From: a virus | IMG/VR virus record: IMGVR_UViG_3300021138_000016 | Location: 1-64,000 of that record | Length of the DNA stretch: 64,000 nt | Reading direction: 5' to 3' (one strand) | Shown here: piece by piece, positions 7,904 to 62,763 of the stretch | How the letters are laid out: each line of letters starts with the position of its first letter | Numbering within the stretch: the first letter of the stretch is position 1 | Translations under genes and position numbers: made by a program | The notes under the pieces: generated by a model | What the model was told of the DNA's origin: nothing | Database searches by the model: none | What the model saw: only the letters and a program-made list of their open reading frames with translations

Positions 7904-8297
7904 AGAAACCCCCACAATCGCTGAAATGAGCGAAGTAGTGGCAAAGTATATGGGATTAGAATATATTTCGTCAAAAGATTCAATAGATAGTTGGGGATGG
8001 TGGAAAAAAGGGAAATTCAAAGAGGGTACTGCTAACATCAGTCATGACTTTATATGTATTTCTACACATCAACTAGACTATCTCAATTGGAACAGGCTTC
8101 ACGAAGTTTGGGAGAAGGTGAGTGAATTTAATGTAGACTATTTGTCAGATTGTTGGGATTGGTCAGACAAAAAAAGTGCTATTGAAAAAAGTGCTATATG
8201 CCACAATAAACTCGAAACCCTCACAGCCTTATACAGAGCAATAATATTTATTAATCAATTAAAAAAAAACAAGTTATGCAAACAGAATACAATTTAG
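7890..8297 (+). CDS. Hypothetical phage protein, 135 aa (ABA-sandwich-like)
   Basis: Contains Trp-rich segments (S-W-G-W-W-K-K, Y-L-N-W-N-R-L, W-D-W-S-D) around helices of the type (H-E-V-W-E-K-V) seen in small alpha/beta phage proteins sometimes annotated as Phage ABA sandwich. The resemblance is by eye only. It overlaps its neighbours by 14 and 22 nt. Confidence 0.5.
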   Translation: MKQNKETPTIAEMSEVVAKYMGLEYISSKDSIDSWGWWKKGKFKEGTANISHDFICISTHQLDYLNWNRLHEVWEKVSEFNVDYLSDCWDWSDKKSAIEKSAICHNKLETLTALYRAIIFINQLKKNKLCKQNTI

Positions 8298-8854
8298 ATT
8301 TCCTGTTAGAAAATACAGGATGCTATAAGAAAAGTAAAGTAGAAAATCTCTTTCCAAAAGACAGAGAAGTAGTTAGCTACAAGGATATATTGCAAAGCAA
8401 TATTCCTCTTGAAGATAAGTACTGGTTCTTTTGCCATAGAGTTTTTACAGATAGTCAGAACAGACATCTTGCTATTAAAATAGCAGAAGTTGTTCTTCCT
8501 ATCTTTGAAGATAAGTATCCTGAAGATAACAGACCTCGTAAAGCAATTGAGGCTGCTAGGTTGTACCTAGCAGGTGAGATAGGTATAGAGGAGTTAGAGG
8601 CTGCTGCTGGGGCTGCTGCTAGGGCTGCTGCTTATGCTGCTGGGGCTGCTGCTAGGGCTGCTGCTTATGCTGGGGATGCTGCTAGGGCTGCTGCTTATGC
8701 TGCTGCTTATGCTGGGGATGCTGCTAGGGCTGCTGCTTATGCTGCTGCTTATGCTGGGGATGCTGATGCCTACAAAACAAAATTAACTAATATACTTACT
8801 AACTTTATCGAAAACAATTTAAAACAACAAGAAAATGCAAACAAAGACATTTAG
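8276..8854 (+). CDS. Ala-repeat protein, possibly Imm-5-like, 192 aa
   Basis: Residues 1-108 form a helical domain (P-L-E-D-K-Y-W-F-F-C-H-R-V, then V-L-P-I-F-E and R-P-R-K-A-I-E-A-A). About 60 residues made almost only of Ala, Gly, Tyr, Arg and Asp in short repeats follow (A-A-A-R-A-A-A-Y-A, A-Y-A-G-D-A). Proteins with this build are often labelled putative immunity protein Imm-5 in phages and Bacteroidota; I infer kinship from pattern only. The C-terminal 30 residues are polar. Function unknown. Confidence 0.6.
   Translation: MQTEYNLDFLLENTGCYKKSKVENLFPKDREVVSYKDILQSNIPLEDKYWFFCHRVFTDSQNRHLAIKIAEVVLPIFEDKYPEDNRPRKAIEAARLYLAGEIGIEELEAAAGAAARAAAYAAGAAARAAAYAGDAARAAAYAAAYAGDAARAAAYAAAYAGDADAYKTKLTNILTNFIENNLKQQENANKDI
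8599..8766 (+). repeat. GCT-rich tandem repeats in the Ala-repeat gene
   Basis: A low-complexity stretch built from GCT codons with interspersed AGG, TAT, GGG and GAT in higher-order blocks. The block encoding A-Y-A-A-A-Y-A-G-D-A recurs nearly identically near 8680-8720 and 8725-8765. It is prone to in-frame expansion or contraction. GC content stands out sharply from the AT-rich surroundings. Confidence 0.85.
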
Positions 8855-10265: not shown

Positions 10266-10517
10266 GTTAAATTAGGGGTACTAAATGAAGATAATGTTAA
10301 ATATAAAGATAATAGTAAGCATTATAATGGTATTGATTTAGCACTTCAACAATTTGTTGGATTTTATCACGGCAAAAGAAATAATACTGATGTAGTTGGG
10401 CTTGTGTCAAGTATGGGGTTAACTAAAACAGAATGGGAACAAATTAAAAAGCAAGGCATGCCTACATATCTTTCTGATAGTGAAATAAAAGAAATTAATA
10501 ACTATTTTAAAAAATAA
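10266..10517 (+). pseudogene. 83-codon coding-like stretch with no standard start, in frame after a TAA
   Basis: In the same frame as the 49-aa gene, codons from 10266 run open to TAA 10515-10517. The translation is protein-like: G-I-D-L-A-L-Q-Q-F-V-G-F-Y, then S-M-G-L-T-K-T-E-W-E-Q-I-K and L-S-D-S-E-I-K-E-I. That tail is of a type common in small phage proteins. No ATG, GTG or TTG lies before codon 42, so it needs readthrough of TAA, an unusual start codon, or is a gene that has lost its start. The nearby ATG at 10285 is in another frame and stops after 18 codons. Confidence 0.5.
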
Positions 10518-24663: not shown

Positions 24664-27600
24664 TTATTGTTCTGTTGATGGTTCAAATCCCTTCCCGCTT
24701 GGATGCTTCTCGTTGTTTTTGTAAAAACTTTTTATATCTTTATCCAATTGTTCATCAATATGTTTTTTCTTTTCTTCCTTTTGTTCTTCACTAAGGGACT
24801 TGTTTGTTTCTACTTCTCCTTTTCTGTGTTTTGCAGACTTTACTGCGTTTGTTGCTTTTTTATACCAAAACTCGGACAATAATTCTTTTTTATTCCCTAT
24901 ACCTACCCATTTAACGTAATCTTCGGGTGTAAAGGTAACTCTTTTTATGTCATTCCCCTTTTCATCTACATCATTAATTTTATAAGGCGGCAATAGCCTT
25001 TGCGAAAGCGGGTCAAACACCCATTTTTGTCCCCTTTCTAATTGTGGTGAACTTTCAATAAGATGTTCCACATTTGACACTACCGCATCTTTTGCCGCTG
25101 CTGCCGATATTTCTCCACGTTTAATTTTATCTTTATACACATCTGCCGCATCTAAAGCCATCATTGCAGGATAGAAAGCGGGGGTATGTTCTATTACCAT
25201 AGACACCCATTTAGGTAAAGTATAATTACCGATACGAATATCCCCCGTTTTTGTTTCGGGTTCTTTTGTCTTTTTTTGCCTTCTTTCTTTCTCCTTATCT
25301 TCTGCTGATTGACCTAGATGTGGGAATCCACCAAATGAAGCCCCGAAATACATTGACCCAATAGAAGCTAAAGCAAACATCCCTAACCCAAATCCCCCCT
25401 TTCTAAAAGCCCTTGCTATGGTTGCAGCTTCTTTAGCGGGGATTTCATTTAATCGTTCCCTTAATGCTGTTTTAAATTCTTCTGAATCCCTATCAGTATA
25501 TCCTAAATCAAACGCTTCGCCTTTAGCTTGTCTATATGCCTTATTCATTTTATATACTGCAATAACAGACCCTGCCGTGTATTCCATAACTAACTCTTTT
25601 AGCATATTGTTAGGTACACGGGTAATTGCTACATCTAGTCTTAATGCCGCCGCTACTGTGGGGTATTTTTTTTCTATATTAGTTAATGTATCGTTCCAAA
25701 ATCTTGTTACCGCATTATCTTCTGAATATTTACCACGTTCCCAATCGGGATAACTGTCATAGGCTATTTCTAATATTTTATTTGAATCTATTGGCATCCC
25801 TGCTTCTATATTCCCTTCTAATCTTGCAATAAATCCTGCCGCAAATTCAGAACGTGCAGAAAATGTTTTTAAAGCCCCGTGAAGCCTTCCCATCACACCA
25901 ACTAAATGTTCTATTGATTGTACAGATACTAATTGGTTTTGCCAATCGCTTCTTTCTTCATTCAATTCGCCAAATTCTTTTTCTATTTTATTTACCCTAT
26001 GTAAAAAAGTTTCATAAGCATCTTCAAAAGAACGTCCTGCAATAAACTCATATACCATATTGCCCAAGTCCTCTACCATAGCTTTGCCGTAATCTACTTT
26101 TAACTTGTCTACCTCTGTTTTTTTAGAATCATACTCTTTAGACTTTGATAAAGGGATTTCATCTAATTCTTTTTTGGCATCTAAATATTTACCTTCCGCT
26201 AGTTTAAACTTTTCCCTAGATTTTTCGTATAAGTTAGCTAATCCCTTCTCACCATATTGCATCCAAACAGCTTGTTGCAGTTTCTTTAGTGTTTCTATGG
26301 AATTGCTTTCGCCACCTAGCTTTGCATTTTTAGAAATAGCCTTTGTTGTTTCAAATGGAAGTGCATCAAATATTTTACCCGTAGTAAGTTTTGTTAATGC
26401 GTTTAATTGGGGTTTTATCCCTGCCGAAAATGCCACTTTCAACAAAGTTTTCCAACTATGTATAAGAAAAGCCACATTCAACCCTCTTGCCAATACTCCT
26501 GCCGCCCTCCATTGCCAATTTTTACCTTTGTTTTGTGAGGCTGCTTTTTCTTTAGACAATTCAAATGCTTGTTTCTTTAATCTTCTTTGATTTTCAAGCC
26601 TAATCAAGTCTGCATCGTATTGGGTAAATGGTTCTGTCTTTTTAGGCTCATCATCAAATTCCCCTGCATTTATTTTTCTTTCATACTCATTAATATCTGA
26701 TTGAAACTTACGTTTGGTTTTTTCTAACTTAATAGTAAGTTCATCTTTCTTTTTATCTTCTTCATAGTTATCTAATATAGACTTTGCTTTTAACCTATTC
26801 TCATAATCTTTAGCATCTTTAAATACATCCAAAGCGTTTTTCATAGCTTTTTCTGCTGCTTTAAATTTAGGTTCTTCGCTTGTCCCATCTAAATAAACTT
26901 TTGACTTCTCAAGTTCATCTATTGCATTTTCAAGCATAGACTTTTGCCTATTAAAATTTTTGTCAGTAGTGTCCCCTATTTCTTCAATCTTGTTTTTAAA
27001 ATCTTTTATTGCGTCATCTACTCTTTGATTATGACTTGATGCACGAGTTTCATAAGAAGCCCTTGTAGTGCTATCTGTATGACTTACTTTCAACTCCTTC
27101 TTCCTTAGTGAATCAGCTAATTCTTTTTGTTTTTTAACTAAGTCCTTATCTATTTGTTTAGGGGATTTATTACGGTTCTTTTTAAAATATTCCCCACTTT
27201 CATTAACTCTTTTTATCTGTTTGTCATAATCCTCTATCTGTTCATTTTTGCGATTTATATCCCTCTGAATCTTCTTTAATTCGTTTTCTTTATCACGCAA
27301 TTCTTTGTCAGCAACTTTTACTGATTCTTTTAATGCTTCTATTTCGGGAGTATCTATTTTTTCGTTGGATTTAGCCCTTTTTTCACGAATACCTTGTTGC
27401 AACTTATCCCTTTTATCGGTAAGTTCTTTTATTGCCCTTTCTTGTCTTTTTGCTTCATTTTCTTTATCACGCAATTCTTTTCTTGCTGCCGCTGCCTTTT
27501 CACGTCTATCTTTTAATATGGCTTCCTTTTCAGCAATAAGACCCTTTTCATATTCGTCACGTTCTCTTTGTGATTCAAATTGTTTTCCCTTAATATCCTT

Positions 27601-30600
27601 TAACTCCTTCAAGTCATTAATGTCATTTTCTAATTTAGTAATAGCATTAAATTCTATTTGGGTGTTTTGTTGTTTTGATTTAATCTTCCTAGATGTTTCT
27701 TGGGTAAATTCGTCTTTTTTAAGATACGCTTTTCTTAGCTTATTCTCGTCAACGTTTGGTAATACTTTCTTTAATTCTTCTAATGCTTGGGGTAATATTT
27801 CTTTCGCATCATAAGAAGGGAAATGAGCCTTAATATAATCATCAATTAGTTTTTTGCCTACCATTTCGTTATTAATATCATTTACCCCGTTTAGTTCGGC
27901 ATATTCTTTTATTGCATTTAAAGACTTTTCAATAGATGAAGGCTCGTTTAATATTTCTTCGTCTATCCCTGCTTCTTTTAACTTAGTCTTTATTTCTAAT
28001 TTTAATTTTTCCTTATCCGTACCATCATCGACTTTATTTACTGCTTTTTCTATAATGTCAGGGATTGATTTATCCCCCTTGTCTAATCCTGTTTTTATTT
28101 CACGAATAGCATCTGCGGACGACATTTTTTGTGGGGTTTCTTTACTGCCCGTATCTATCTTTTCTGATTTAGCACGTTCGTCAAATTCAGTAGCAAAATC
28201 TTCTAGGATAAGTTTAGCTTTATCCCTAATTGGTTTTTCTACTTTTGTTTTATTTACTTTCCCGCCTTGTGCTTTATCAGCCTTTTCTGATTCCGATTTT
28301 GCTTTAGCAACATCATCAGACAATCTTTTTTCAAAGTCTTTCTTAATCTTTTCAATTTCTATTTCTTGTGACTTTATAAGACTTGCCCTTTCTTCTTCCC
28401 AATCCCTTGCTGTTCTTTCTAGTTCTTCGGGGGATAAAGGTTCACCCTTTGCAGCACGAAGTTCTCCACGCTTTATTTCTAATCCCGTATCACTATCATA
28501 TCCTAATGCGGCTTGTAAGAATACTAAAGAACGCCCTAACGTAGTACCCCCTGCTTTAATTACTTTTACTATATCTTCAAATTGGCTTATTAATTTTTTA
28601 TAAGAATCATTTGCTTTTTCTTTTGATAATGGGGTTTCGGCAGTAAATCTATCTTCTGATTTTTTTACTAAATCTTGTTCTGTTTCTCTTTTTAAATATA
28701 ACATTACTGCCAAATCTTCATCATCCATTCTTATCCTGCCATTTTCAATATCCGAAAGATGTTTATATAGCATTTGTTCTGCACCTTCTTTTAAACTTAA
28801 ATGGGGGTAATCTTGCTTAACCCTATTAAGCCCTTTTTCTAAACTTTCACTCCACTTTTTAACCCCTTGTGCTTCGTAGGCTTCTTTTAAAGCAGAAACT
28901 TCTTTTAATTGGGTAGCCTTGTTTATTTGAGTAAATTTAGGTTGCCCACTTTCTTTTATAATAGGTTCTGTAATAGGAGGCACAATAGGAGGTGGGGGAA
29001 CAAGCCCCCTATCCTCAAATACATCTTCTTCCCGCCCTTCGGCATCGGCTTCTTTGTCCCTTTGTCTTTCAACTTGTTCTATTTTTGCTTCTCTACCGAT
29101 ATTGGCATTATCTTGTGTTGGGGTTTGTTCCCCTACTGTTTCTTCTTTCGGCTCAACGTTAATATTGCCGCTTTTTTCTGTAAATCCGTTAGTGGCTGCG
29201 TACTGTTCCCAATATTCTTTTTCAAGTTGTTCGATTGTATCAAACTGTTGTTCTGCAAGTTTTTGTTGCCCTTCTGTGAGTTTTCTAAATTCATTTTCTA
29301 TCGCTTTTGTGGCTATCTCATTGTTTAATGGAAGCCCTGTTAATTTTTCAAATTTGTCTTTTGCACTTTGTGCAACGCTATTTTCTGATTCTTTTAATGC
29401 GCTACTTTCGCCTTTAGGGAATTTGATAATAAAGTCAACAATATCTTGTGGGGTTATTTCAGTTCCATAATGGTCGGACATTTCTTTTGCAACCTCGTCT
29501 ATACTTCTTGCTTCTTCGCCTTTTTTGCCTTTAAAATAACTATTTATAATGTCGGAATCAATATTATTCCTATCCCCAAAACTTTTAAAGCTATCTTGAG
29601 ATATTTTACCAAGACCATATTCTGCTATTTGTCTTTCTTTCGTGTCAATTACTTCCCCTTCGGGCTGTTGCCTAATATAAGTTTCTGCAATTTCTAGTGG
29701 ATTATTTGAATTGTCAATTACATATTGGTCTGCTTCTTTCTCGTCTTTAAAAGAAATCCCTTTAGGTTCTTTTGAAACTTCTCCCACATTAAAATTATAA
29801 TTGTCTGCCGCCTCGTTTATAACCTTTTTAGATGTTTTTTTACTTACTTCTTTACCCGTATTAATATCAACCACTTTGGCAAACCCGTTCTCGTCATAAA
29901 CTAATTTATTTCTCCCACTTTTTGAAATATACTCTTTTGGTTCTGCAACTTGGATATTTTCTTCACTAGGTACAGATGCTTCTTCTTTAGGTACAGATAC
30001 TTCACTTGTTGGGATAGGTGTCGTAGGTTTTTCTTCTTGTTGTTGGGGTTCGGTTGCTTTTTCTGCTGCTACTTCTCTCTTATTTAATTCATTTGCATTT
30101 ATGAATTTAATATCCGCACCTAACCCTAAGTTTTCTACTTCTCCTGCAACTGCATTACTATTATCTATTAATACCCCCCCACTTTTTTCTGCTAAAGATG
30201 CCTTTTCTTCACCACTTAACCCTTGTATTATTGTAAGGTTCTTTTCTGCTTCGGGGGATAATCCCATAGTCTTTAAAATTTCAGCCTTGTTTTCTTCGGG
30301 GTTATCCTTTCCACTTTTGGTAACTATTGTTACCTTCTCCCCGTTTTCTAAACGTTGCTTTACTTCTTTACCAAAAGGTAATAATTCCCCATTTTTAGCT
30401 ATTGTACTATGATAGTCTGAAAATATTGGTCTGCCTTCAAATTCGTTTTCTTTACTTACAAATTTATCTGTACCCTTCTCTATTGGGGCTTGTTCCCCTT
30501 CTGCTTTTTTAACTTCCTTCTTTAATTGTTCTGCCTCAAATAATTGTTTTCTATACTTAGATGGAAATTCGGCATCGTCACTTTTTACTACTTCCTTAAT

Positions 30601-33585
30601 ATACCCCTTATCCATCCCCTTTTTAATATCACCATTTTCAGTCATTACTTTTAATGCTTTGTCTGATAATATTACGGGGTTATCATTGCCATCTACTAAA
30701 TAATGGAATGATGCCTCGTTATTCATTGATTTAGAGGCTTCTTCTTGGTATTCTTTTGATTTAGATTTATGGAAGTCTGCTAATGCTTTATTTTCCCCGT
30801 TATCCCCTGCTAATTGCTTAGATAGGGCATCGTGCATATCTGCTAGGGTAAGATTGTGTGCAGTATATAAATCATTGATGTTATATCTGTCTAGTTTTGC
30901 ATTTGCTATATTCCTTTCCAATCCTTGTGCGTGAAGAATAGTGTTTTCTAAAGATATTTTATTGGCTTTTGTTTCAGCCTCATTATCTGTTTTGTAATCG
31001 CCGTTTTCTTTCATCAACATAAGGTTGTCAATCAAAGATGCACTATTGTCATTTATAGCGTGTTGTATGTTGTTATTATAGAATTTATTTTGGTGGATTT
31101 CGGCATTTGTCGTATTCAATAATTCGTTCCAATTTTTCATTGAAGCCAAATGACCTTGAACCCCGTGATATAAATCCATAGGCAAGAAAGACAATGCAGA
31201 AACAAAACTATCAACACCGTGTTTTTTTACATAATCAACTATGTTTGGCTTTTCATTACCTAATGCTTCTGCTTGGGCTGATTCTTGTAATAATCCTTGA
31301 TTAGTCATCATTGCGGTATTGGCAGCAATGTTTTTTGTCAAGTTAGTAGCGGTCTTTAATAAAGTGGGTTTTAATGTTTTTCCAAATAAAGATGCTGACT
31401 GTAAATACCCCGTAAAAGCATTAAACAGCAAATCATTGGCAGCAATATTACTTGTCGCTGTACTTGCATCATAGGTATTAACCCCTTGCTTTAATAAACT
31501 ACCATAAGAATTAGCCAAATTAGCGGCAGTCATATATCCTGCATTACCTACTGTTGCCAATCCCGTCCCTACTACTTCGGGCGCACCTAAAGCAACTGCA
31601 CCTTCACCTATCCCCCCTGTTGCAGCACCCAATACTGTTGCACCTGCTATTAAAGGTGTAGAAGAACCTAAGAAGTGTTGCCAATAATCCCAACTTTTTA
31701 AAGAATTAATCCCCTTGTATTCAAAATGTTCTTTTGCTACGTTAGACAGGTCTATATTATTAGCACTAAGGCTTGAATTGTAAACTCTTGCAGCATCCCC
31801 ACCGTGTCCTGTTTTTGCGTACATAAAAGCACTAAGACCATACATCATATTTTTATATGCTTGGTCTACACTTGCCATATAAGTCCCCTTATCTGCTAAT
31901 ACTTCATCCGCTTTTCTTCCCCTTGCTTTAGATACTGCTTCTAGGGTTTTGTTTTCTACTTCACCTAACCCCTTATAGTAATCTTCTAGTGCTTTTTGTG
32001 ATTGGGCTTTAGTCATGCCTTTTATACCAATACTTCCATCGGGATAAACAGACACATCTTTGTTTGCTGATTGCAAAGCCCCAATTAAAAATCCTTTACG
32101 AACATCATTTGCCTTATCCTTTGCATTTTTTATATCTGCTTCTCTTTTCTTTACTAAAGCAGATGTTTCTTTATTGTTTTGTAGGTCACGGATAATATTC
32201 TTTTGGGCTATTTCGGGTGTAACCATTTTTGATTCCACTTGCGAAGCCCATTTTTGCATAATAGATTTCCCCGATTCATTTGCATCCAACGCTTTATTAA
32301 AGTTGTCATTTGCCGCTAATACATCATTATTAAAATGTGTTTCTGCTAATGAGTTTGCTTGTGCATATTTTTCGGGGGAGAAAGTATCTTTTATATTATG
32401 TCCGTTGTCTATAAAACTTTTTAAGGCAGGGTTATTTTTAGCAACTTGTTCATTGTATTTTCTTGTTGCGTGTTGTACGGGGATAGCCGTTTCTATATGG
32501 TCTATAATACGATTTTCTACATCTGTGTACTCTGTATTTTTCAAGTTTTCTCCCAATGCTAATCCTGCACCGTGTTCTTTTGCAGCAGCAATAACATCAT
32601 TCTTACTTGACATATAATCGTGTACTATCTTACGGATAGCATATTGGTCTGATTCGTCAAATATATGTGCTTGTCCTAGTGGGCTTCCTTTCCTTTGTTC
32701 GGGGTTTAATGACTTTAATTTCCCTTCATAATCCAACGCTGCTTTTTCAATATATTTTTGAAGTGCAGGTAGTTGTAGTAATTGCGGTTGGTATTCCGTA
32801 GTGTATTTGTGGTTATAAACTACATCAATACCGTGTTTTATAAAGTTCTCTTTATCCTTTAAGTTGTTTAATTGTGCATCTATTTTTTCGTAATCTTGTT
32901 GTGAAGGGGTAACGAAACGGGAAGCCAAATTTTGCCTTTGGTTATTCAATCGTTCCATATCCTTCTTAACATTCCCCCATTCTTGCAAAGCGGGCATAAT
33001 GCTTTGTGTTTGAGTAAGATTAGATATAGTTGCTAAATTCTTATTTTTTTGATTTATTGCATTGGTTAATTGTGGTAAGTCAATACCCATATTAGGCTTA
33101 ACCCCGTATGCTTCTAAATCTTCTTCTTTTAAATCACCCTTATAAAACCTTTCAGTTATATCTTGTCTTTTATTGGCATCGTGTATATTAGCCTCTAAGT
33201 TTTCGGGGGAAACCAATGATGTTGTTGGCTTTTTACCCGACAATATCCCACTAAATAAGTTTTTGTTCTTTATTTGTTGTTCTTGGGCTTGTTTAGCCAT
33301 TTCAGCATTATTACCTTCTACTACTGTTTTAGTTAAAGGCGAAACAGGCTTATCATCCCTTCCTAATGTAGATTTTGAAGTGGATGTGGATGTGGGTGAA
33401 GTTACCCCACCATTTTGCAAAGGCTTTGAGCCATCCAAAGGTATAGTTGGTATAGTAGGTTCGGTAGATGCTTTTTTTTTTAATATAGGCAATCCATCTT
33501 CTGTTGTTTCCGTGTTTGCAGAAACATTTTGATTACTAATTATTGGTAACCCATCCTCTGTGTATTTTCTAACCGATGTAGCCAT
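24664..33585 (-). CDS. Giant internal virion-like polyvalent protein, 2973 aa
   Basis: The N-terminus repeats T-E-D-G-L-P-I twice and is Pro/Ser/Thr-rich. Residues about 150-640 are helical; about 640-690 form a Gly/Ala-rich hydrophobic patch that could insert into membrane. Residues about 1045-1180 resemble a HAD-like domain (F-S-D-Y-H-S-T, I-V-T-K-S, L-I-D-N-S-N). Residues about 1330-1480 carry a motif common in phage large polyvalent proteins (R-S-I-D-E-V-A-K-E-M, then P-Q-D-I-V-D-F). Long coiled coils cover roughly 1680-2330, and a second hydrophobic helix lies near 2760 (G-L-G-M-F-A-L-A-S-I-G-S-M-Y-F-G). Size, layout and neighbours fit a protein packed in the capsid and injected with DNA. 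I found no RNA-polymerase catalytic motif. Confidence 0.7.
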   Translation of the reverse strand: MATSVRKYTEDGLPIISNQNVSANTETTEDGLPILKKKASTEPTIPTIPLDGSKPLQNGGVTSPTSTSTSKSTLGRDDKPVSPLTKTVVEGNNAEMAKQAQEQQIKNKNLFSGILSGKKPTTSLVSPENLEANIHDANKRQDITERFYKGDLKEEDLEAYGVKPNMGIDLPQLTNAINQKNKNLATISNLTQTQSIMPALQEWGNVKKDMERLNNQRQNLASRFVTPSQQDYEKIDAQLNNLKDKENFIKHGIDVVYNHKYTTEYQPQLLQLPALQKYIEKAALDYEGKLKSLNPEQRKGSPLGQAHIFDESDQYAIRKIVHDYMSSKNDVIAAAKEHGAGLALGENLKNTEYTDVENRIIDHIETAIPVQHATRKYNEQVAKNNPALKSFIDNGHNIKDTFSPEKYAQANSLAETHFNNDVLAANDNFNKALDANESGKSIMQKWASQVESKMVTPEIAQKNIIRDLQNNKETSALVKKREADIKNAKDKANDVRKGFLIGALQSANKDVSVYPDGSIGIKGMTKAQSQKALEDYYKGLGEVENKTLEAVSKARGRKADEVLADKGTYMASVDQAYKNMMYGLSAFMYAKTGHGGDAARVYNSSLSANNIDLSNVAKEHFEYKGINSLKSWDYWQHFLGSSTPLIAGATVLGAATGGIGEGAVALGAPEVVGTGLATVGNAGYMTAANLANSYGSLLKQGVNTYDASTATSNIAANDLLFNAFTGYLQSASLFGKTLKPTLLKTATNLTKNIAANTAMMTNQGLLQESAQAEALGNEKPNIVDYVKKHGVDSFVSALSFLPMDLYHGVQGHLASMKNWNELLNTTNAEIHQNKFYNNNIQHAINDNSASLIDNLMLMKENGDYKTDNEAETKANKISLENTILHAQGLERNIANAKLDRYNINDLYTAHNLTLADMHDALSKQLAGDNGENKALADFHKSKSKEYQEEASKSMNNEASFHYLVDGNDNPVILSDKALKVMTENGDIKKGMDKGYIKEVVKSDDAEFPSKYRKQLFEAEQLKKEVKKAEGEQAPIEKGTDKFVSKENEFEGRPIFSDYHSTIAKNGELLPFGKEVKQRLENGEKVTIVTKSGKDNPEENKAEILKTMGLSPEAEKNLTIIQGLSGEEKASLAEKSGGVLIDNSNAVAGEVENLGLGADIKFINANELNKREVAAEKATEPQQQEEKPTTPIPTSEVSVPKEEASVPSEENIQVAEPKEYISKSGRNKLVYDENGFAKVVDINTGKEVSKKTSKKVINEAADNYNFNVGEVSKEPKGISFKDEKEADQYVIDNSNNPLEIAETYIRQQPEGEVIDTKERQIAEYGLGKISQDSFKSFGDRNNIDSDIINSYFKGKKGEEARSIDEVAKEMSDHYGTEITPQDIVDFIIKFPKGESSALKESENSVAQSAKDKFEKLTGLPLNNEIATKAIENEFRKLTEGQQKLAEQQFDTIEQLEKEYWEQYAATNGFTEKSGNINVEPKEETVGEQTPTQDNANIGREAKIEQVERQRDKEADAEGREEDVFEDRGLVPPPPIVPPITEPIIKESGQPKFTQINKATQLKEVSALKEAYEAQGVKKWSESLEKGLNRVKQDYPHLSLKEGAEQMLYKHLSDIENGRIRMDDEDLAVMLYLKRETEQDLVKKSEDRFTAETPLSKEKANDSYKKLISQFEDIVKVIKAGGTTLGRSLVFLQAALGYDSDTGLEIKRGELRAAKGEPLSPEELERTARDWEEERASLIKSQEIEIEKIKKDFEKRLSDDVAKAKSESEKADKAQGGKVNKTKVEKPIRDKAKLILEDFATEFDERAKSEKIDTGSKETPQKMSSADAIREIKTGLDKGDKSIPDIIEKAVNKVDDGTDKEKLKLEIKTKLKEAGIDEEILNEPSSIEKSLNAIKEYAELNGVNDINNEMVGKKLIDDYIKAHFPSYDAKEILPQALEELKKVLPNVDENKLRKAYLKKDEFTQETSRKIKSKQQNTQIEFNAITKLENDINDLKELKDIKGKQFESQRERDEYEKGLIAEKEAILKDRREKAAAARKELRDKENEAKRQERAIKELTDKRDKLQQGIREKRAKSNEKIDTPEIEALKESVKVADKELRDKENELKKIQRDINRKNEQIEDYDKQIKRVNESGEYFKKNRNKSPKQIDKDLVKKQKELADSLRKKELKVSHTDSTTRASYETRASSHNQRVDDAIKDFKNKIEEIGDTTDKNFNRQKSMLENAIDELEKSKVYLDGTSEEPKFKAAEKAMKNALDVFKDAKDYENRLKAKSILDNYEEDKKKDELTIKLEKTKRKFQSDINEYERKINAGEFDDEPKKTEPFTQYDADLIRLENQRRLKKQAFELSKEKAASQNKGKNWQWRAAGVLARGLNVAFLIHSWKTLLKVAFSAGIKPQLNALTKLTTGKIFDALPFETTKAISKNAKLGGESNSIETLKKLQQAVWMQYGEKGLANLYEKSREKFKLAEGKYLDAKKELDEIPLSKSKEYDSKKTEVDKLKVDYGKAMVEDLGNMVYEFIAGRSFEDAYETFLHRVNKIEKEFGELNEERSDWQNQLVSVQSIEHLVGVMGRLHGALKTFSARSEFAAGFIARLEGNIEAGMPIDSNKILEIAYDSYPDWERGKYSEDNAVTRFWNDTLTNIEKKYPTVAAALRLDVAITRVPNNMLKELVMEYTAGSVIAVYKMNKAYRQAKGEAFDLGYTDRDSEEFKTALRERLNEIPAKEAATIARAFRKGGFGLGMFALASIGSMYFGASFGGFPHLGQSAEDKEKERRQKKTKEPETKTGDIRIGNYTLPKWVSMVIEHTPAFYPAMMALDAADVYKDKIKRGEISAAAAKDAVVSNVEHLIESSPQLERGQKWVFDPLSQRLLPPYKINDVDEKGNDIKRVTFTPEDYVKWVGIGNKKELLSEFWYKKATNAVKSAKHRKGEVETNKSLSEEQKEEKKKHIDEQLDKDIKSFYKNNEKHPSGKGFEPSTEQ

Positions 33586-59096: not shown

Positions 59097-59269
59097 TAGT
59101 TGTTAGGTTTAGTTTTCAATACTTCGTGGGGGTTGCTTGGGCAAGTACACATTTCCTTATAGAAAATAAGTTTGCCACACTCACAAGTCCTGCCATCAAA
59201 CTGTAAGTCGTTTGGTTGTGGTATAACCCCATCAACCTTATGTGCATCTTTACAAGGTTTGTTATCCAT
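59096..59269 (-). CDS. Small zinc-ribbon protein, 57 aa
   Basis: An open frame from ATG (59269-59267) to TAA (59098-59096), overlapping the upstream gene by 8 nt and the downstream start by 1 nt. It has C-E-C-G and C-T-C about 10 residues apart plus an N-terminal Cys, a minimal zinc-binding pattern. It fills what would otherwise be a 165-nt gap. Role unknown. Confidence 0.6.
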   Translation of the reverse strand: MDNKPCKDAHKVDGVIPQPNDLQFDGRTCECGKLIFYKEMCTCPSNPHEVLKTKPNN

Positions 59270-60248
59270 CGCTAAAAGTGTTTAGTTGGATTTCTTTGAA
59301 TTGAAACCCGTGATTAACAATAATTTTTTCTAATTGATTTATCCTATTACTCCAAGTGTGATTTGATAGAAATAATCTATTGGTGGCTTTTGCAGCCCCC
59401 TGTACAAAAAAGTCCCTATACAAAGCAGCGTGACATATTTCACCTAATTCTTTAAAGTTAGACCATTTGTAAATAAAATCTTCTGACAATCCTTTTATAT
59501 CTTGGTGAACCGTGAATATACCACAAGCCAATGCCCTAAAATCCCTATCACTACAATATCCTTCACGTTCAAAGTTGTTTTGGGTAAATGTTATCTTGGC
59601 TGAATTGTAACAAAGTATTTCTTCTTGTGGGTTTAGGAATCCACCTTTTTGCCCCAACCCATAAGCCTTAAACTTGTCTCCAAATTCTTTCTCCATATAC
59701 TCAATTACTTCTTGTCGTTCTTTTGACTTAGGGAAGTTTAAGTTTGAGTTTTGATAGTTACTACCTATGAATACTATTGGGGGAAAATCAAATATAGTGT
59801 TCTTGTTATTAAACTTTCGATACATTTTAGTATCACAACTTGGTTGCATATAATCAACGTTGTTAATCCCTTTTTCTTTTAGTTGTGCAACACTTTCTCT
59901 ATCACAAAAAAGAATAAGATTTAAGTGTGGGGCAAGTTCTTCTATGAAGTCAATATTGTCCCTTACATCTACTGTATAAAAAAAAGTAAATCCCAACTTA
60001 GACAACTCCGATGCAGTATAACTGTCTAAAGAACCTTCGTTTTGCATTTGAATAAATATCAAATCGGGTTCTTCCATTGCTGCTTTAGCAATAAGTCGTG
60101 GGGAAACCCCCTCTATCCCTGCGTTTAGCTTTACTTTCTGCCAATCAATTTCAGAAACTTCCCATCCATTGCTTTCAAATGCTTCGCTTATCCCCGTATT
60201 TGGATATGCGGCACTTGTTTGTCTGATGTGTAATACTTTCTTTATCAT
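59262..60248 (-). CDS. CgeB-like glycosyltransferase, 328 aa
   Basis: A two-domain GT-B-type layout. The N-terminal part includes D-L-I-F-I-Q-M-Q-N-E and F-F-Y-T-V-D-V-R-D-N. The C-terminal part includes I-V-F-I-G-S-N-Y and R-D-F-R-A-L-A-C-G-I-F-T-V-H-Q (about 232-246), the donor-binding region of CgeB/GT4-like enzymes. It would transfer a sugar to a virion, host or DNA component. Its start overlaps the frameshifted gene by 4 nt. Confidence 0.72.
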   Translation of the reverse strand: MIKKVLHIRQTSAAYPNTGISEAFESNGWEVSEIDWQKVKLNAGIEGVSPRLIAKAAMEEPDLIFIQMQNEGSLDSYTASELSKLGFTFFYTVDVRDNIDFIEELAPHLNLILFCDRESVAQLKEKGINNVDYMQPSCDTKMYRKFNNKNTIFDFPPIVFIGSNYQNSNLNFPKSKERQEVIEYMEKEFGDKFKAYGLGQKGGFLNPQEEILCYNSAKITFTQNNFEREGYCSDRDFRALACGIFTVHQDIKGLSEDFIYKWSNFKELGEICHAALYRDFFVQGAAKATNRLFLSNHTWSNRINQLEKIIVNHGFQFKEIQLNTFSDG

Positions 60249-60561
60249 TTGTCTTTTTTTATTGCTTTAATATGTTCCGTATAATAACTTAAAGAAAATA
60301 AAGAATGTTTTATTAATAACTTCTTACCTTCTTCCAAATATTTATCTAAGTCATTATGCCCCCACTCTTCTGGGTCAAAACTAATTCGGACTTCTTTTGT
60401 TGTTCTCTTACTTTCTTTATGTTTTATATAAAAAAATAAGCAATCTCTCTGCCGCCAGAACTAATAAAATCGTGAACCCAATCTTTGTAAAAAAAATCTG
60501 TACCCTCAAAAGATTGTTTTAAAATACTGTCTAAATAAAGTAATTCATTAATTTGTATCAT
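60245..60561 (-). CDS. Gene of about 105 aa split by a -1 frame change at a T7 run
   Basis: ATG (60561-60559) overlaps the upstream stop as ATGA. The zero frame ends at TAA (60426-60424) after 45 codons. The -1 frame then runs open to TGA (60247-60245), again in an ATGA overlap with the next gene. At 60436-60430 lies T-TTT-TTT, a canonical slippery heptamer, two codons before the zero-frame stop. Slipping there joins Y-F-F to Y-I-K-H-K-E-S-K-R and on to R-I-S-F-D-P-E-E-W, one fluent protein of about 105 residues. It may be programmed frameshifting, a one-base deletion in the homopolymer, or a sequencing error. Function unknown. Confidence 0.65.
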
Positions 60562-61226
60562 ATATTATTTGTTAATCGGTTAAAATTTTGTTCCATCATT
60601 ATTGAAAAATCAACAACTCCCAATTCTTTATTATAAATACTATCAAGACCTTTATGCTTTAATGGGTCGTAGTTGAATATGTCTGATTTAGTAGGTCTTT
60701 GTGTAAATATCATTGGGTTACTGCAATAACACTTGCCTAATGGCTGTATCTTTCTCATAATACTTACATCTATTGGTTGTGTTTCATCTTCCAAGAGGGG
60801 CAAGATTAGATTTATCGCTTCCTTCGAGTAAAATGTAGCGTGTAAAGCGTATGAAGCTGTTATTTTAAGTATGTTTTCAGATACTTTAGTAGGTGGAACT
60901 AATAAGTTTACCCCTAAGTGTAGGCAATGATAGTCTTTAGGGATTTGTTGCAAACATTCTGAAATAAACCCTTCTGTACCTTCTATAAATTTAGCATCAT
61001 CTTCAAATACAAGTATATTTTCATAATTCATTAGTTTGGCTATTGAAAAAAGGCTGTGCATTGTCTTAATTAAACCAACATAACCTTCTTTGTTTCTTAA
61101 AGCATCAAACTTAACCCATTCAATCCCCAATGAATCCAATTCCTTACCCAACACATCAAGTCTATCCGACTTTCTTTCGGGCAATGAAATAATAAAAACC
61201 TTATCTACAAAATCATTAATTAGCAT
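60558..61226 (-). CDS. GT25-family glycosyltransferase, 222 aa
   Basis: V-F-I-I-S-L-P-E-R-K-S-D-R (10-22) and V-F-E-D-D-A (73-78) are the typical start and the E-D-D metal/nucleotide-sugar motif of GT25 LPS galactosyl-type transferases. A-L-H-A-T-F-Y-S-K-E-A near 127-137 also fits. The protein is cytosolic. It overlaps the FkbM-exostosin gene by 11 nt. Confidence 0.8.
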   Translation of the reverse strand: MLINDFVDKVFIISLPERKSDRLDVLGKELDSLGIEWVKFDALRNKEGYVGLIKTMHSLFSIAKLMNYENILVFEDDAKFIEGTEGFISECLQQIPKDYHCLHLGVNLLVPPTKVSENILKITASYALHATFYSKEAINLILPLLEDETQPIDVSIMRKIQPLGKCYCSNPMIFTQRPTKSDIFNYDPLKHKGLDSIYNKELGVVDFSIMMEQNFNRLTNNI

Positions 61227-62763
61227 CTGTTATTATTTGATACTTGAAAGAAATAAACTTGTTGGTTATCGTTTTCTTGACCCCTTCGTAAGTAAAAAAT
61301 TCATTGAACATTGCTTTACAGTTTTCTTGCAATATCCATATTTGCTTTTCGGGATATGATTGCAATATAATATCAATGTCATTTATTTCTGCTTCACTAA
61401 TAACAATACCAAATCTTTCAAATTGTTCTTTTGTCAGTCCGTATGGATATAAATGCTTGTCAGAAATGTAAACAGGGATACTACCTTGCTCAACCGCTTC
61501 CATTATTCTAAAACTACTCAATCCAAACCCCCTAAAACATAAAGTAAAAACAGATTGTGCCATTATATCGCAATATTCTTGCATTGAATGATTATCTGTT
61601 GATATGTAGTAGTTGGGGTTGTTTCTTAAAGATTTAATACCTTCACTTCTTAGGGGGTTTGTTAATCTGCCAACAAAGTTCGCCAAGTACTTCTTATCTG
61701 TTTTTTTTGATTTGCCGTGTGGCTTACAGATAAGTGGCAGTATATAGTCACATTGCTCGTCACACATACCAAATACCTTTATGTCTAAGTTGCTTAAATC
61801 GTTGATAACCCCCAAATCAAATTGGCAAATAGTAAAATACTTCTTTGACTTGTCTAGCTTATCCAAATAGGATTGTAATTGCTTTATCGCTAGTGTATCG
61901 TTACCGAAATTGTGGTTTTTATAATAAGCAGTCCACATAATAGGTAGATACTCTCTGTCTTTCACTTCTCCTTTGTATGTTGATGCAAACCATTCCTCAA
62001 ATATTTGTTCGTTATCTGATGGATACTTGCTTGTTTCTTTAGGGGTAAATAATTTGGGGATGCCAAAATCGTTAAATTCTTCCAATAGCTTAGGTATATA
62101 CCTTTTTTCTGCGAATTTCAAGGCACTTTTAGCGGGTTCACGTCTAATATAGAACGCATCACCCCATCCTGCCCCTGTCATTGATAATTCTACCCTATCA
62201 AACCCATTTCTTTCCAAAAATTCGTCTATTTCGTGCAGTTTAGGCACTCCCTTGTAGACTTCTCCCGTGTTTACCTCACAATAAATGTACTTCATCTGCT
62301 TTAAAAAGTTACCAAGACCTTTTAAAGCCATCAATTCAGCACCCTGTATGTCTAAATTTAAGAAAAAATCAGAAACGTCCACTCTTTGTATTCTTAAAAA
62401 AGTGTCTAATCGCTTTGTAGTAAGTTGTATTTTACTTACAAATGATACTTCGGGGTGGTTTGTTGTGTGTGTACCAAAATCAAATATTGAACTGCTTTCC
62501 CCTTTGTTAGAAGAAACATTAAATTGCACTACTTCACCGTCTTTGTCGCCTACACATACATTGTACGCCTTGTGTGTGGGGTAATCTTTCAGTATTTCTT
62601 TTGCTGAATTAAATGTTTCGGGCAATGCATCTACCCAATAAACGTTTTCAAGACCATTACGTTTGTAATCCTCTCTTTCTTGGAAGTAATTAGCCCCAAC
62701 GTGAAGTACCCCGTTTGCTTTTATATTGTATTTGTTATTTAGAAAGTCTAGTTTAATCAGCAT
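61216..62763 (-). CDS. Fusion of FkbM methyltransferase and exostosin-like (GT47) glycosyltransferase, 515 aa
   Basis: Residues 1-210: FkbM-type SAM methyltransferase with G-V-L-H-V-G-A-N (18-25), V-Y-W-V-D-A-L-P, L-N-L-D-I-Q-G-A-E-L (138-147) and Y-I-Y-C-E-V-N-T. Residues about 240-515: exostosin-like glycosyltransferase with F-T-L-C-F-R-G-F-G-L-S-S-F-R-I-M-E-A-V-E (about 403-422) and S-I-P-V-Y-I-S-D (about 425-432), the donor-site signature. One chain may add a sugar and O-methylate it. The frame is unbroken, so this is a true fusion in this sequence. Confidence 0.78.
   Translation of the reverse strand: MLIKLDFLNNKYNIKANGVLHVGANYFQEREDYKRNGLENVYWVDALPETFNSAKEILKDYPTHKAYNVCVGDKDGEVVQFNVSSNKGESSSIFDFGTHTTNHPEVSFVSKIQLTTKRLDTFLRIQRVDVSDFFLNLDIQGAELMALKGLGNFLKQMKYIYCEVNTGEVYKGVPKLHEIDEFLERNGFDRVELSMTGAGWGDAFYIRREPAKSALKFAEKRYIPKLLEEFNDFGIPKLFTPKETSKYPSDNEQIFEEWFASTYKGEVKDREYLPIMWTAYYKNHNFGNDTLAIKQLQSYLDKLDKSKKYFTICQFDLGVINDLSNLDIKVFGMCDEQCDYILPLICKPHGKSKKTDKKYLANFVGRLTNPLRSEGIKSLRNNPNYYISTDNHSMQEYCDIMAQSVFTLCFRGFGLSSFRIMEAVEQGSIPVYISDKHLYPYGLTKEQFERFGIVISEAEINDIDIILQSYPEKQIWILQENCKAMFNEFFTYEGVKKTITNKFISFKYQIITDAN

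Follow-up and report, generated by a model that had tools for sequence, protein, structure and literature searches.

Transitions between two reading frames are known from several described systems. Programmed −1 ribosomal frameshifting at a slippery heptamer of the form X_XXY_YYZ is represented by dnaX, IS3-family transposases, and the G/GT tail assembly chaperone of phages. In E. coli, the majority of such heptamers show some tendency to frameshift; without stimulators, the rate is no more than about 10 times a background of some 0.05% (PMC4066793). Transcriptional slippage, as in Thermus dnaX and Shigella spa13, is another established route in bacteria (PMC5009743), and its known sites are usually homopolymers of at least 8 (PMC3711429). 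A third group consists of orphan singletons detected by GeneTack in a survey of prokaryotic frame transitions across 1,106 genomes, which lack database hits and of which 33% were ascribed to gene overlaps and 67% to sequencing errors and indel mutations (PMC3711429).

The gene studied here lies in a 78,142-base virus record, of which a stretch of 64,000 nt (the window) was analyzed. It is part of a cluster of glycosyltransferase and methyltransferase genes on the minus strand, upstream of the terminase gene. The terminase is distantly akin to those of Flavobacterium elemoviruses and Cellulophaga phages (about 20–26% identity), and on the basis of this kinship, the host of the phage is probably a Bacteroidota bacterium. 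The features of the locus are listed below in the direction of transcription.

60558–61226, minus strand: upstream neighbor, glycosyltransferase family 25 (PF01755, E 1.4e-6)
60424–60561, minus strand: frame-zero open frame of 45 aa (N45), ending at TAA 60426–60424
60489–60496, minus strand: second in-phase T_TTT_TTT of the same gene, a T8, where a −1 slip leads to a stop after 9 codons
60427–60460, minus strand: frameshift box of 34 nt, from the last stop of the −1 frame (60463–60461) to the stop of frame zero (60426–60424)
60430–60436, minus strand: T7 run, phased T_TTT_TTT, the sole long homopolymer within the frameshift box
60245–60430, minus strand: C-terminal part in the −1 frame (C61), 61 aa plus TGA, coding-like from about 60376 and weak over 60430–60377
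59262–60248, minus strand: downstream neighbor, glycosyltransferase of the Glyco_trans_1_2 type (PF13524, E 4.3e-9)

The slot between the two glycosyltransferase genes runs from 60561 to 60245 and has an ATGA overlap at each end. The TGA of the family 25 gene (60560–60558) overlaps the ATG of the slot (60561–60559), and the TGA of the −1 frame (60247–60245) overlaps the ATG of the downstream glycosyltransferase gene (60248–60246). At 317 nt, the slot is 1 base short of an uninterrupted gene of 318 nt. Frame zero reads TAT TTT TTT across the T7, and the −1 frame, which contains neither ATG nor GTG, is open from 60460 to its TGA, giving a read-through product of 44 + 61 = 105 aa. A first-pass annotation of this DNA had proposed a one-gene slot with ATGA overlaps at both ends, a frame zero ending after 45 codons, a C-terminus of about 60 residues in the −1 frame, and a T_TTT_TTT heptamer at 60436–60430; the coordinates, the heptamer phase, and the coding scores given below bear out all of these.

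Both halves were scored with codon frequencies taken from 32 long genes in the window. Against true in-frame windows, N45 ranks at the 17th percentile in frame zero, a score that no open window in a wrong frame attains. C61, read in the −1 frame, ranks at the 11th percentile, and just 0.18% of the wrong-frame windows remain open while scoring at least as high. Two coding-like frames therefore jointly fill one gene slot, as in the singletons of the survey, and since both halves score as coding between two intact ATGA junctions, the slot is best read as one gene split over two frames.

These codon scores are unreliable against antisense frames in this window, as long plus-strand open frames antisense to 24664–33585 (minus strand, itself a single open frame of 2,973 aa) also score as coding-like. 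A scan for further frame breaks was too noisy against such frames, barring one candidate at 10266–10517 on the plus strand. This open frame is strongly coding-like (score 22.9), but its first ATG, GTG, or TTG occurs only at 10404, and an ATG in another frame is found near 10285; it may be another small gene with a disrupted frame, or a gene with a non-standard start. The protein predicted at 8276–8854 (plus strand) carries an alanine-rich repeat of type AAAYAGDAARAAAYA in its C-terminal half.

As to the cause of the interruption, we consider it likely that the frame was disrupted by a net one-base indel, arising by mutation or by an error in assembly or sequencing. The affected gene would be a small orphan of the glycosyltransferase cluster, and the simplest cause would be a change in the number of Ts at 60436–60430. 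The DNA as written would yield the 45-aa N-terminal fragment only, with the other 61 codons out of frame. If it is a real mutation in the phage population, the gene would be in an early stage of decay and may carry another lesion further downstream. The first-pass annotation had listed a homopolymer indel or read error as its main alternative to programming, and we judge it the better explanation of the two. The locus resembles the GeneTack singletons in its single frame transition with a homopolymer at the break, and in having no homologue found and no conserved stimulatory context (PMC3711429). It differs from them in a coding signal that is well preserved on either side of the break and in two intact operon junctions, so that any damage would be recent. 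The good preservation of the C-terminal frame from about 60376 was counted against an indel, and any decay must therefore be recent. The 27 other A/T runs of at least 7 inside annotated genes of the window all leave the frame intact, which was likewise counted against an indel. Errors at such runs are therefore not frequent in this contig, and a genuine mutation is no less likely than a faulty assembly.

The explanation favored by the first-pass annotation was programmed −1 frameshifting at the T_TTT_TTT heptamer, by which most ribosomes would make the 45-aa protein and a slipping fraction the 105-aa protein. Like dnaX, the IS3-family transposases, and G/GT, the locus has a heptamer of the right form, correctly phased within the only box that the stop codons permit, and the frame beyond it is coding-like; the general proneness of such heptamers to frameshifting in E. 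coli also speaks for programming (PMC4066793). With an in-phase A7 or T7 in 0.85% of 36-nt boxes of intact genes, its presence in this box is more than chance, but it cannot separate a programmed slip from an indel, because both predict a homopolymer there. By itself, the heptamer is weak evidence: such heptamers are common in genes that need no frameshift, with 15 in the 32 intact genes on the minus strand. The slip-ready phase of the T7 was counted against an indel, though about half of the A7/T7 runs in intact genes (15/31) share it. Both runs are scarcer than a synonymous codon shuffle predicts (22 and 9 observed, 37 and 16 expected for A7 and T7, respectively), as expected if they are indel-prone in this phage. 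A7 and T7 are likewise depleted from E. coli genes in all frames, for which transcriptional slippage or indel mutation has been invoked (PMC4066793).

The surroundings of the T7 also argue against programming. No stem formed within 40 nt after it in pseudoknot-free folding, in agreement with the first-pass annotation, which had seen no clear 3′ stimulatory stem; longer windows fold at an average level, with only a slight gain over shuffled sequences (z about −1). In E. coli, motifs lacking a stimulator peak at about 10 times the background given above (PMC4066793). In addition, the T8 lies 60 nt upstream of the T7 in the same phase, and a slip at this identical heptamer would truncate the product.

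Programmed sites are further expected to be conserved in position and direction among several homologues. Searches with the 105-aa product, its halves, and the neighboring proteins found no credible homologue of the interrupted gene in viral_contigs, genome_contigs (84,980 prokaryote species, one genome each), phages, or plasmids; the contig scans matched short exact peptide patterns and thus reach close relatives only, so that distant homologues could have been missed. Alignments of the terminase and the glycosyltransferases led to 84 loci, none of which encode the interrupted gene, and a sequence search against solved structures gave no match. As neither the halves nor the fusion have a homologue among these, there is no conserved frameshift to cite. 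A Pfam match to BtrH_N (E 0.006–0.012), confined to the C-terminal half, was well below the cut-off; it stayed below it in a six-frame search, as did matches in 6 of 14 control genomes, and was treated as chance. The same applies to weak matches to NCBIfam DarH and to DUF7258 and phrog_9169, the latter two of which did not recur in direct six-frame searches. An AlphaFold model of C61 alone was a single long helix (mean pLDDT 74.5) and uninformative.

The closest relative found, an 86-kb record (L011) whose terminase is 55% identical, contains homologues of the flanking glycosyltransferases, of the FkbM methyltransferase domain, and of a 265-aa protein. In our window, the FkbM domain is fused to an exostosin-type (GT47) glycosyltransferase domain (61216–62763, minus strand), while L011 has the FkbM part only. 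The homologue of the 265-aa protein is encoded directly after the family 25 glycosyltransferase in L011, and a search of the whole record gave no match to the interrupted gene, which places the gene in a variable region. By the collections searched and this comparison, the interrupted gene is a putative orphan of that region. Taken with the stem-less heptamer and its truncating twin, the lack of a homologue in the collections searched that would conserve the site or the frame sets the locus apart from dnaX, the IS3-family transposases, and G/GT, as does the fact that the gene is neither a tail chaperone nor a transposase gene. The T run itself is all that points to programming, and we consider this part of the first-pass reading unlikely. 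If programming did operate, ribosomes finishing the 105-aa product at the ATGA overlap would also supply the translation of the downstream glycosyltransferase; a stem-less slip at the T run that governs the number of ribosomes arriving at this junction, and hence the output of that enzyme, seems less likely still.

The point at which the frame changes is less sharply defined than the first-pass annotation had claimed, by which the −1 frame was entered exactly at the heptamer. Stop codons alone confine a single −1 transition to 60460–60427, and in a frame-contrast score the −1 frame is clearly coding only from about 60376, with 60430–60377 at the 0.4th percentile of in-frame windows. Over 60423–60377, frame zero continued past its TAA outscores the −1 frame by 5.4 nats over 16 codons, a contrast that known genes show in only 2 of 14,105 in-frame windows. 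That these first 16 codons are less coding-like in the −1 frame is a further point against programming. We treat the contrast as a caution and not as proof, because the stretch was chosen after the scores had been seen and two rare codons, GTC and CGA, supply most of the difference. The weak segment leaves room for a decaying gene with a nonsense change and a later frame change, and also for a second gene starting near 60385.

In the latter case, the slot would be shared by two small genes, that of 45 aa and another in the −1 frame starting at ATT 60385 or TTG 60337. The position at which the −1 coding signal becomes clear, close to the ATT, fits this arrangement, and gene overlaps are expected to account for one in three orphan frame transitions (PMC3711429). 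The −1 frame, however, has no ATG or GTG, the TTG would leave 30 aa and lose clearly coding codons, and ATT start codons are very rare. Moreover, about 40 nt would separate the stop from the start, whereas the neighboring junctions of the operon overlap. Two genes therefore appear improbable.

Transcriptional slippage on the T run would instead yield mRNAs that differ in run length, some of them encoding the full-length protein. As in Thermus dnaX and Shigella spa13, an A/T homopolymer is present in the gene and correctly placed, and as in spa13, the extension overlaps the beginning of the following gene (PMC5009743). Realignment of this kind calls for a homopolymer of at least 8 or two shorter ones (PMC3711429), and the run here, unlike those sites, is 7 long and accompanied by a longer one in the same gene. 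This T8 should slip at least as readily and break the frame, making transcriptional slippage very unlikely.

Should the T run be a programmed site after all, frameshifting would be at work in a Bacteroidota phage gene that belongs to neither the tail nor the transposase genes, which is rare. As an indel, the break is mainly a matter of annotation: homopolymers of the contig merit checking against reads, and a single interrupted gene, instead of a gene of 45 aa, should be annotated in the slot.
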